Source of the DNA: an uncultured Pelagibacteraceae bacterium
GTDB taxonomy: Bacteria > Pseudomonadota > Alphaproteobacteria > Pelagibacterales > Pelagibacteraceae
Reading direction: 5' to 3'
DNA: 36,324 nt
Assembly (NCBI GenBank): GCA_902530635.1
Contig: CACABC010000008.1
Span: forward strand, 1 to 36,324
Part shown: in pieces, positions 33,868 to 36,324 of the stretch
How positions within the stretch are numbered: position 1 is the stretch's first letter
Layout of the letters: each line of letters begins with the position of its first letter
Made by a program: the position numbers and the translations under genes
Notes under the pieces: model-generated
Told to the model about the DNA's origin: nothing
What the model saw: the letters and a program-made list of their open reading frames with translations, nothing else
Database searches by the model: none

Positions 33868-34795
33868 AACCAAAAGAGCCCATTAATTCATTCCATTCTC
33901 TTTTTGAAAGACCCGAAGATCTAATATCACATTTTTCTCCTTTGATCATTTTTTGAATAACTAATTTACCCTTTGCAGAGAGTTCCATTCCTCCAACTCT
34001 ATAATCAATAAAAGCATCATAAGTTGTTGGAACCCATTTTTTTACAGTGTTTAACATCACTCTTGCGTACTCCCTAATTTCAAATTGGGCATGACTATCT
34101 GCTCTTAAAGCCAAAAAATTTAGTAAATTTAATAAATCTGTTTTCCAATACCATTGTGTGTATGAATTTAATGTAAGATTCATTCTTGCTAATTCTCTTG
34201 CTAACCCTTGTTTGTTGTCATCAATTATGCTTCCATCATACTTTTCATTGAGCATCTCTTCGTAATGTTGGTAATTTCTTTCGGCATCTTCTTTTAAAAT
34301 TTTCAATATATTGTCAGCTTGTTTTCCATTAATTAAATCACCTCTACCTTGTCTATTATTTGTTGATTGTGCTGCTAAGTTTTCTCTTTCCGGAACATAA
34401 AATTCTTTATCCATAATTGAATATCTTGCAGAATACTCGTTTACATTAGCCGTTCTATGCCTGATCCATTGTCTTGCAATAAAGATAGGAAGTTTAATAT
34501 GGTATTTAATTTCACACATTTCAAATGGAGTGCTGTGTCTATGTCTCATTAAGTATTTTATTAAACCACTATCTGTTGAAACTTTTTTAGTTCCCTTGCC
34601 ATAAGACACTCTTGCTGATTGAACAATTGAAGTATCGTCTCCCATATAATCAACAACCCTTACAAATCCATGATCAAGAATGGGCATTGCTTCATAAAGT
34701 ATTTTTTCTAACTCAGGAGAAGTTACCCTTTTTGTAATATTTTTTTGGGATTGTTGGTCTAAAATTTCCTGTTTTTGTTCTTTAGTGAGCTTCAT
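33848..34795 (-). CDS. thyX: Flavin-dependent thymidylate synthase
   Basis: The 315-residue ThyX makes dTMP from dUMP using methylene-THF and FADH2. The defining ThyX motif is visible as [15 protein letters not shown] (~119-133), preceded by [20 protein letters not shown] and IARQWI. The C-terminal half holds [18 protein letters not shown] (~227), which fits the dUMP/FAD site of the family. The protein is longer than compact ~220-residue ThyX forms. It uses methylene-THF, the same one-carbon pool that the sarcosine oxidase and dehydrogenase genes in this window would feed. Confidence 0.95.
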
Positions 34796-34807
34796 TTGAA
34801 ATATTTA

Positions 34808-34837
34808 TTGAATCTTTATTTTTTGATTTTATATTAT
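34808..34837 (+). promoter_or_regulatory. Possible sigma-70-type promoter for ssrA
   Basis: TTGAAT (34808-34813) and TATTAT (34832-34837) are separated by 18 nt. A transcript would begin near 34843, at the GTTGG-TTTT-CCAAC hairpin (34842-34855) just ahead of the tmRNA acceptor piece. The match is good but the region is A+T-rich, so chance matches are expected. Confidence 0.4.
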
Positions 34838-34841
34838 ATCT

Positions 34842-35099
34842 GTTGGTTTTCCAACTATGACGATAAACGAGTTTCGTAATAAACATTGCGGACGTGGGGG
34901 CAGTACCCACCACCTCCACCAATTACAACTTATGGGGGTGAATCAGAATCGACGAGTGTCTAAAGGCTATTCTTTCGTTCGAGATGGTTCCGACGTAACG
35001 GGCTAATTATAAATGCAAATGATAAATTTGCACTTGCTGCTTAATTAACTTGTTAATTAAGTAAACGGGGTTTGGGGCACCTGGCAACAGAACGCCCCT
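34842..35099 (+). ncRNA. ssrA: Permuted two-piece tmRNA (alphaproteobacterial type)
   Basis: tmRNA rescues stalled ribosomes and tags their product for proteolysis. The acceptor piece comes first and ends in encoded CCA at 34919-34921, with T arm GTGGG/CCCAC (34894-34898, 34906-34910). After a 12-nt spacer the coding piece begins at 34934. GGGGGTG (34934-34940) pairs with CACCTCC (34911-34917), giving a 7-bp acceptor stem with a G-U third pair, the alanine identity element. CGAGTGT (34953-34959) and ACATTGCG (34883-34890) can form the joining helix with one bulge. The tag frame 35015-35044 reads ANDKFALAA then stop. A 9-bp hairpin (35040-35048/35053-35061) follows, then the final hairpin 35074-35098. 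The T loop is GGCAGTA, not the usual TTCRANY. Exact processed ends cannot be read from sequence. Confidence 0.92.
35067..35099 (+). repeat. tmRNA-end repeat, copy 1 (within ssrA)
   Basis: This is the first of three direct copies of a 33-nt element. It starts with GGGGTTT, and its core GGGGC (35074-35078) pairs with GCCCC (35094-35098). Inside, CTG-GCAA-CAG (35081-35090) forms a short stem with a GNRA-type tetraloop. It directly follows the post-tag hairpin, so it is probably the 3' end of the tmRNA coding piece. It is identical over 33 nt to copy 3. Confidence 0.9.
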
Positions 35100-35144
35100 G
35101 CGTATTGGCGTTAACACTTATTAATTCACAACTTTTTTTATTTT

Positions 35145-35162
35145 GGGCACACATAGGGCACA
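35145..35162 (+). repeat. Paired GGGCACA motifs left of the HNH gene
   Basis: GGGCACA occurs at 35145-35151 and 35156-35162, 11 nt apart start to start, about one helical turn. A third copy lies at 35842-35848 on the far side of the HNH gene. The same GGGCAC is also within the tmRNA-end repeat. Short phased repeats next to a junction resemble arm-type recombinase sites, but this is inference. Confidence 0.35.
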
Positions 35163-35169
35163 GTGAAAA

Positions 35170-35814
35170 TTAAAATTTTGAACTTTTCTTTAAATTTTCT
35201 TTAGCCCACAAAGGTTGCAAATTTGAATAATGATTAGCCTTTAATACATCCTTATAATTTTTAGGATTAAACTTCGTTAATGGAATTATATGATCGATAT
35301 GCCACTCACCATGATTTTGCCAACTCATACCAGGTTTAAATCTTGTTTCTAAATGAGCTCTTAAAGTTTTTTTATCGCAGCCAACAATTGTTTGCATCTC
35401 ACTCCTAGTTCTAGCATTTTTTTTTCCGCACCAATTTTTTAACCTTATTCTTAACGTTGTCCACATTTTTGCGATTTCCCCTTTTTCGGTTTTAAAATAT
35501 CTCTTATATATAAGTTTTTGTTTCTCAGAGCCCTGGAAATTTTTAAGGGCCTTCTTTCTACTTTTTTTAAACTCTGCGGTTTGTTTGTAGTTCGCTAAAG
35601 TTTTTTTTCCTTTTTCAGAAGATTGATATTTTTTTAAAACTTTTTTGTATTTTTCACTTTTATGATATTTTTTTCGTATATCTAAATAACATTCGTGGCA
35701 TAATGCAGAAACAGTGATCCGTTTTGAAACGTGGCCTTTGTGGCATTTTTTTCCTGTGAAATAATAGTTTAAATTTTTAGCTAAGGCATTCTGTCTCGAA
35801 ATTATTTTATACAT
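35170..35814 (-). CDS. HNH endonuclease (phage/homing type)
   Basis: The 214-residue, strongly basic protein has an N-terminal possible zinc-binding segment, YYFTGKKCHKGHVSKR with LCHECYLDIRKKY (~17-48), as seen in many phage-encoded HNH proteins. A lysine-rich helical linker with repeated K(S/T)EK(G/Y) units follows (~50-110). The C-terminal HNH nuclease domain (~165-208) has WHIDHIIPLTKF with the catalytic His, then SNLQPLWAKENLKKS containing the Asn and later conserved residues. The start is ATG 35814; the longer frame to 35847 runs into a direct-repeat region. It is oriented against ssrA and flanked by copies of the ssrA end, which suggests a mobile or homing origin. Confidence 0.85.
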   Translation of the reverse strand: MYKIISRQNALAKNLNYYFTGKKCHKGHVSKRITVSALCHECYLDIRKKYHKSEKYKKVLKKYQSSEKGKKTLANYKQTAEFKKSRKKALKNFQGSEKQKLIYKRYFKTEKGEIAKMWTTLRIRLKNWCGKKNARTRSEMQTIVGCDKKTLRAHLETRFKPGMSWQNHGEWHIDHIIPLTKFNPKNYKDVLKANHYSNLQPLWAKENLKKSSKF

Positions 35815-35828
35815 ATTAATACAATATC

Positions 35829-35860
35829 CGGACTCACTGGCGGGCACAATACGGACTCAC
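35829..35860 (+). repeat. Direct repeats CGGACTCAC upstream of the HNH gene
   Basis: CGGACTCAC occurs at 35829-35837 and 35852-35860, 23 nt apart start to start, with GGGCACA between them at 35842-35848. The block is richer in G+C than its surroundings and lies 15-46 nt upstream of the HNH start, so it could be an operator for that gene or recombinase binding sites. Confidence 0.4.
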
Positions 35861-35923
35861 CCAGCAAAGAAATCAGGGCTTCTGGTTGTATTAGAATTGA
35901 TATATAACAATAAATAACGTTAA

Positions 35924-35956
35924 AAGGTTAAGGGCACCTGGCAACAGAACGCCCCT
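35924..35956 (+). repeat. tmRNA-end repeat, copy 2
   Basis: This copy matches copy 1 at 29 of 33 positions, and at 25 of the last 26 (35931-35956). The differences are in the 5' G-tracts. The stem is GGGC/GCCC with the same CTG-GCAA-CAG inner hairpin. It ends 5 nt before the Shine-Dalgarno sequence of the next gene, so it lies in that gene's leader. There is no U-run after it, so it is not a typical intrinsic terminator. Confidence 0.85.
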
Positions 35957-35973
35957 AAAGAAAGGATGTTGAT

Positions 35974-36270
35974 ATGCAAAAAGAAATGCTTGCAATAGCA
36001 AAGTTTAAATCTGGTGAAGGAAAATTTGAAAAATTCATGGGATGGATGCAATCAGATGAAGGAATGGGAGTAAGGAAAACTATTGCTCATGTTGAAAAAA
36101 CAGTTCCAGCAATAGCACCAAATAAAAGTTATGTTATGTTTAAAGTCTCAGTTCATAATGAAGAAAATATGAAGAAATTTGCTGCTGGTCAAAACCCAGT
36201 TGCAAAACCCATTTTCGATGAATGTATCGAAAGTGTTCAAATGTGGGAGATGAGTCCAGTTAAGCTTTAA
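35974..36270 (+). CDS. Small protein of unknown function, possibly dimeric alpha/beta-barrel fold
   Basis: I do not recognise this 98-residue protein. It is soluble with no signal peptide. Segments such as KEMLAIAKFKSGEGKFEKFMGW at the start, YVMFKVSVHNEENMKKFA in the middle and a C-terminal VQMWEMSPV strand give the beta-alpha-beta pattern of small ferredoxin-like or antibiotic-monooxygenase-like dimers, but this is only a fold guess. A good ribosome binding site AAAGGA (35961-35966) lies 7 nt before the ATG. The leader is repeat copy 2, and repeat copy 3 begins 19 nt after the stop, so the gene is bracketed by tmRNA-end repeats. Confidence 0.65.
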   Translation: MQKEMLAIAKFKSGEGKFEKFMGWMQSDEGMGVRKTIAHVEKTVPAIAPNKSYVMFKVSVHNEENMKKFAAGQNPVAKPIFDECIESVQMWEMSPVKL

Positions 36271-36289
36271 TTTTTAAATATTAAGTTAA

Positions 36290-36322
36290 GGGGTTTGGGG
36301 CACCTGGCAACAGAACGCCCCT
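36290..36322 (+). repeat. tmRNA-end repeat, copy 3 (at window edge)
   Basis: All 33 nt are identical to copy 1. Weak similarity continues upstream (TTAAGT then A-rich then GGGG in both). It is followed by CTTT at the window end, so whether a U-run, another gene or another repeat unit follows is not visible. Confidence 0.9.
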
Positions 36323-36324
36323 TT

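Follow-up and report, generated by a model that had tools for sequence, protein, structure and literature searches.

The window analysed here is a stretch of 36,324 nucleotides from an uncultured Pelagibacteraceae bacterium, corresponding to contig C8 of a genome whose 26 contigs total 0.985 Mb. Towards its end lies a tmRNA gene, behind which a 24-nt block present at the end of the tmRNA coding piece recurs twice in the same direction, delimiting two short units that we call cassettes 1 and 2:

34804-35102, plus strand: two-piece (permuted) alphaproteobacterial tmRNA gene (Rfam RF01849, 227.3 bits with a gathering cut-off of 50; also called by ARAGORN), with the tag peptide ANDKFALAA
35076-35099, plus strand: copy 1 of the 24-nt block GGCACCTGGCAACAGAACGCCCCT, attB-like, at the 3' end of the coding piece of the tmRNA
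35100-35932: cassette 1, of the armed type, with one endonuclease-like minus-strand gene and iteron arms at both ends
35145-35161, plus strand: left-arm iteron pair GGGCAC, at 35145 and 35156, 11 nt apart
35170-35847, minus strand: 225-aa ORF resembling phage endonuclease VII (HNH-type) (PHROG 1035, E = 6.4e-19)
35830-35860, plus strand: right-arm iterons GGACTCAC (35830), GGGCACAA (35842), and GGACTCAC (35853), repeat family D13
35914-35931, plus strand: AT-rich motif ATAACGTTAAAAGGTTAA, the left half-site at the far end of cassette 1
35933-35956, plus strand: copy 2 of the 24-nt block, the starting point of the analysis
35957-36298, plus strand: cassette 2, of the arm-less type, with a Shine-Dalgarno sequence and one gene; no iterons seen
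35974-36270, plus strand: 98-aa ORF of cassette 2
36299-36322, plus strand: copy 3 of the 24-nt block, 2 nt before the contig end (36324)

An earlier note on this DNA had described a repeated hairpin, and the repeat is real: the 23-nt sequence GGGCACCTGGCAACAGAACGCCC occurs exactly at 35075-35097 (within the tmRNA), 35932-35954, and 36298-36320, with a fourth exact copy in the same genome on contig C12 (18051-18073, minus strand), and 100 dinucleotide shuffles gave no match at up to 3 mismatches. The block sequence closes the Rfam tmRNA model and is, in the Rfam alignment, the last part of the coding piece. The surroundings of copy 2 are also as that note had them, with the copy ending (last T) at 35956, the Shine-Dalgarno sequence AAAGGA at 35961-35966, the ATG at 35974, 17 nt on, and an outer G-tract that has drifted.

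The 225-aa ORF has no match in Pfam, NCBIfam, or PADLOC, and its translation may in fact begin at an internal ATG near 35814; the 98-aa ORF has none in Pfam, NCBIfam, or PHROG. A homologue of the endonuclease-like gene is found between two tRNA-Met calls in another genome (G121:C4, L265:1641-2561), which suggests a different target site for similar cargo.

The genes beside the fourth copy on contig C12 are, judged by their sequences, presumably a mazG-like gene and fumC, and with these neighbours contigs C8 and C12 are probably two sides of a single unassembled array. This copy does not lead a gene, since the ORF behind it faces towards the copy. The same far side of the gap carries a cassette-like unit (G000:C12, L005:16758-18047) with CTATGTACCT-type repeats and a degenerate block at its end, followed by a methyltransferase-like gene.

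Allowing up to 3 mismatches, the block sequence is present in 164 of the 197 genomes of the family, with at least two copies in 92 and at least four in 24 (both hand tallies of the per-genome counts, which reproduce the 164), and a reversed control sequence yielded none among the matches listed for these 197 genomes. A scan of named genomes with the cassette form of the repeat gave 118 stretches, of which the 80 listed all belong to Pelagibacteraceae/Pelagibacterales (SAR11). We fetched 40 array regions, mostly from multi-copy genomes, so the cassette statistics describe regions picked for several copies and not random genomes. ARAGORN places a tmRNA in 34 of these 40 regions, where one copy lies at the tmRNA end and further copies in the same direction lie downstream, 2 to 7 copies following the tmRNA. 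The closed segments of less than 2.9 kb between copies (n = 91) have a median length of 822 bp, ranging from 75 to 2753 bp; segments of at least 2.9 kb, last open-ended segments and, in the repeat test on both ends, one 75-bp segment were left out of the cassette tests.

Cargo, identified in a sample of ten chosen proteins per profile library, is highly varied. The enzymes comprise HNH, Mrr-type, and type III restriction-like proteins and a superoxide dismutase, accompanied by the candidate defence protein PDC-S11, a caspase-domain protein, DUF2784, DUF805, and many nameless small proteins. The last block of the array lies 30 and 32 nt before a mazG-like gene in two genomes (G003 and G083, respectively), which suggests that the mazG-like gene was the original tmRNA neighbour; in many of the other genomes, no mazG turned up in the stretch that we fetched. 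The block is found, too, in stretches that lack a tmRNA (L057, L063, L067, L069, L070, and L078); the copy in L063 follows an apparent rnhA, and a diverged copy in L078 adjoins tRNA-Thr.

The 24-nt block is conserved with sharp edges on both sides in the 102 copies classed as non-tmRNA by their tag-end sequence, a number that includes the first copy of L058, which is a tmRNA copy according to ARAGORN and whose array is absent from the order tests. To the left of the block, cassettes carry an AT-rich motif (approximately TAAYGWWAAAARGTT) in place of the GGGG tract of the tmRNA, and the 34 copies classed as tmRNA keep this tract as their own left flank. Motifs of the ATAACGTTAAAAGGTTAA kind found in cassette 1 recur at the cassette ends of relatives and differ from the tmRNA sequence.

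The arrays are ordered. Armed cassettes make up 22 of the 33 first cassettes versus 15 of the 47 later ones (Fisher p 0.003). Block mismatches stand at 0.30 for copy 2 and grow to 0.98 in the copies farther out (p 0.017). Both p values are rough because the arrays of relatives are not independent. This polarity fits entry at the tmRNA and ageing outwards. In a genome of another genus with another tmRNA tag (G014), the tmRNA's own block is directly followed by the start of the 98-aa cassette, identical to that of the window at 129 of 137 nt outside the block up to the contig end; the cassette thus stands first in that array and second in the window. Because 252 aligned positions of tmRNA DNA are themselves 89% identical between the two genomes, the similarity of this cassette does not by itself prove a recent transfer.

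Comparing shared cassettes with the thyX-tmRNA flank of the same pair of strains, the identity of the cassette often exceeds that of the flank (97.7 versus 89.9%, 97.4 versus 86.6%, 94.7 versus 86.6%, and 93.8 versus 85.8%). Pairs such as one at 94.6 versus 83.5% are weak comparisons, with only about 250 nt of flank aligned; some cassettes show the reverse (for example, 90.5 versus 96.9%), and several pairs are about equal.

In many minus-strand cassettes, short direct repeats spaced 11 nt apart lie about 48 to 71 nt behind the block and recur 67 to 101 nt before the next one; the repeat word varies between cassettes. A strict scan detects left-arm iteron pairs in 40 of the 91 cassettes versus 0 of 66 interior controls (shuffled mean of 0.24), leaving 51 of the 91 without a pair by this test. 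The same 6-mer is shared over both ends, with at least 4 copies, in 21 of 90 cassettes, against a mean of 1.8 and a maximum of 7 in 500 permutations.

No integrase profile matches any of the 304 cassette ORFs. Integrases in relatives sit, at several loci, behind tRNA genes or the tmRNA with an iteron pair in between. In one genome (G223), two TGGCGTCA repeats lie behind the tmRNA block, and next comes an integrase of up to 343 aa, which belongs to the integrase family PHROG 1, read as tyrosine-type, and is the only integrase found adjoining a tmRNA block (397 genomes, one query). One query picks up such integrases in 16 of 397 genomes, a second in 11 of 297. Inspection of the other ten integrase loci by eye revealed iteron pairs in L204, L205, L207, L211, and L212 and no clear pair in L206, L208, L209, L210, and L214. 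With no integrase among the cassette ORFs and integrases elsewhere in relatives, mobilisation in trans appears likeliest. A weak integrase match in L110 was rejected on its sequence, the protein being one that we take to be phytoene synthase-like.

The window genome itself holds a satellite-like element at tRNA-Met (G000:C2, L083:5667-12805), which encodes a tyrosine integrase, an AAA_25 protein, and a terminase small subunit. Its arms consist of TGACACA-type repeats, two between the tRNA and the integrase and three at the opposite end; a cassette-like cargo unit with a SHOCT-domain protein follows the tRNA repeat. The block is absent from the 13.5-kb region of this integrase.

In three scans of viral contigs, no phage attP carrying the block came up; the eight exact viral matches are contigs with a tmRNA of their own (L035-L042). 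In these contigs, one of them 242 kb long, the tmRNA is permuted, has a tag of the ADENLALAA type, and ends in the same hairpin.

These comparisons show the array layout, exact 24-nt joints, a polarity, and one cassette at different positions in two genera. Copies 2 and 3 very probably arose by duplication of the 3' end of the tmRNA coding piece and serve as attachment sites that separate tandem mobile gene cassettes. A tyrosine integrase acting in trans, from a phage satellite or a similar element, would recombine the cassette site with the tmRNA block; each insertion would rebuild the tmRNA intact and push older cassettes outwards, so that the newest cassette would stand next to the tmRNA. 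The armed cassettes, with iterons at both ends and genes directed towards the tmRNA, have the look of satellite relatives that lack an integrase, and the arm-less one-gene cassettes, such as that of the 98-aa gene, may be older or captured units. The earlier note had considered that copy 2 could be merely an attachment-site relic; the evidence supports an attachment site, and one that is more than a relic, as the copies form the joints of a family-wide tandem cassette array. The tmRNA gene thus appears to be a docking port for acquired genes in SAR11.

A wider reading, which we hold to be less likely than not, takes the SAR11 tmRNA as a docking port that resembles an integron but has no integrase to itself: gene-sized cassettes whose iteron arms have many different sequences would exploit the integrases of various satellites or phages in trans, single-gene cassettes without arms would be carried along, and the tmRNA promoter would drive plus-strand cassettes by read-through. 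It draws on the layout, with no terminator-like site behind the tmRNA (none in 34780-36324) and ORF starts close to the block.

The array might alternatively be a chromosomal integron with unusual attC sites whose integrase lies elsewhere, perhaps the near-universal 325-aa tyrosine recombinase, an explanation that we consider unlikely. Like integron arrays, the SAR11 arrays consist of small tandem gene cassettes with one repeated joint site and, as their polarity indirectly indicates, insertion at the anchored end, and the 325-aa recombinase is encoded in 45 of 60 family genomes (in the window genome at G000:C6, L084:2568-3542). However, this protein scores far below the cut-offs of XerD (77.5 of 329.6 bits), XerC (66.4 of 335), and the integron integrase (28.3 of 265) and is encoded near sugar-type biosynthesis genes, away from the array; no integron integrase was found beside the primary site among the 304 cassette ORFs and this recombinase. 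Integron attC sites are conserved in structure rather than sequence. The block is conserved in sequence and shows no attC-like conservation of structure; moreover, unlike in integrons, most SAR11 cassette genes point towards the anchor, and many cassettes have iteron arms, which match those beside satellite integrases. An early survey of hypervariable regions in SAR11 describes no integron attC sites and an integrase in HVR2 (PMC2217521), which, judged by its neighbours, is probably the counterpart of the 325-aa recombinase.

The hairpin could instead be a cis-regulatory RNA leader of, or a processing site for, the gene behind it, as the earlier note had proposed from the position of copy 2 just before a Shine-Dalgarno sequence and an ATG. 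Of the 28 cassettes with plus-strand genes, 23 do have their first such ORF starting no more than 60 nt from the block, but every gene lies on the opposite strand in 62 of the 91 cassettes (all plus in 24, mixed in 4, and no gene in 1). Homologues of the 98-aa gene occur at 110 places in 108 of 297 genomes, the window's included, and among the 29 loci examined besides the window (30 fetched), none has an intact block upstream. Two of them (G267 and G087) show a degenerate right half upstream of the homologue, followed by nearly the same Shine-Dalgarno stretch, and in G087 a degenerate block also lies behind it. Copy 2 precedes the 98-aa gene because the gene is cassette cargo.

The stem itself is also not kept in the cassette copies, and such a lack of base-pair conservation in relatives is what the earlier note had named as grounds for refuting its reading. 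Across the 102 non-tmRNA copies, 491 of 510 positions match in the right arm and 389 of 510 in the left, where the outer pairs are lost, forming in 32 and 66 of the 102 copies; compensatory double changes amount to 5 cells versus 4 to 8 in shifted controls, with no excess. The inner pairs form in 89 to 99 of the 102 copies, and since their letters hardly vary, this pairing speaks neither for nor against a fold; the inner palindrome may be a pair of integrase core sites. As for the fold described as kept in copy 2, it can form, but the RNA fold z-scores of copies 1 to 3 (-0.37, -0.87, and -1.30) are barely beyond composition, and copy 3 is predicted to fold differently. With the stem not maintained, folding unremarkable, and the terminator-like site lacking in the stretch scanned, we rejected the leader and terminator readings and do not favour processing, and a role of the hairpin as leader or processing site is very improbable.

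There is equally little to recommend dispersed palindromic repeats that a REP-type transposase or similar copies and that are not attachment sites, an explanation to which we give a slim chance: some copies do lie in stretches without a tmRNA, but those in tmRNA regions are tandem, unidirectional, and downstream of the tmRNA, and they bound recurring cargo with recurring termini. An assembly artefact at contig ends, which the position of copy 3 might suggest, can be dismissed with near certainty, as two-copy arrays lie inside long contigs, including a genome in a single contig of 1.2 Mb (G003), and many related records are labelled as single-cell isolates.

Attachment sites that separate tandem mobile cassettes, the reading we prefer, have a parallel in Dehalococcoides, where the published account describes tandem islands downstream of ssrA with copies of the ssrA 3' end at their boundaries and, next to the repeat, an extra motif unlike ssrA; 15 islands lack an integration module and were proposed to be cis-mobilizable elements, and the islands are larger, with a serine recombinase and insertion at the T-loop (PMC3146451). 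Both systems have an intact ssrA at one end, 3'-end repeats at the other boundaries, and several units in tandem and in one direction. SAR11 differs from these descriptions in using the coding-piece end of a two-piece tmRNA, in the apparently tyrosine-type integrases of relatives, in closed units of gene size, in the iteron arms, and in the lack of an integrase match among the 304 cassette ORFs. A second parallel is an additive flexible genomic island of Methylopumilus at tRNA-Lys with repeats of the last 20 nt of the tRNA (PMC10872708), which shares a streamlined aquatic host, variable unit size, and mostly unknown proteins, and differs in the target, a tRNA-Lys and not a tmRNA; the section that describes it contains no analysis of arms or half-sites.

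Phage satellites resemble the cassettes in that the tRNA-Met satellite of the window genome has the same kind of iteron arms, together with a tyrosine integrase and a small terminase gene. Tycheposons are tRNA-flanked cargo elements with a tyrosine recombinase. Unlike phage satellites and tycheposons at tRNA genes, the latter as outlined in part in PMC10872708, the SAR11 cassettes show no integrase among their 304 ORFs and are flanked by a tmRNA.

By analogy with these systems, the SAR11 array would work like a tandem accretion of cis-mobilizable elements in an integron-like layout, and it fails the integron tests made. In the open literature, mainly openly available journal papers, we found no report of tmRNA cassette arrays in SAR11. 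Tandem ssrA islands are already known from Dehalococcoides (PMC3146451), and the gene-sized, iteron-armed form in SAR11 is new.

SAR11 bacteria, whose genomes are very small, count among the most abundant marine cells, and their site-specific uptake of genes is poorly known. A tmRNA-anchored array with exact joints, defence-like cargo including restriction-type proteins, and a plausible helper offers a concrete, testable mechanism for such uptake.
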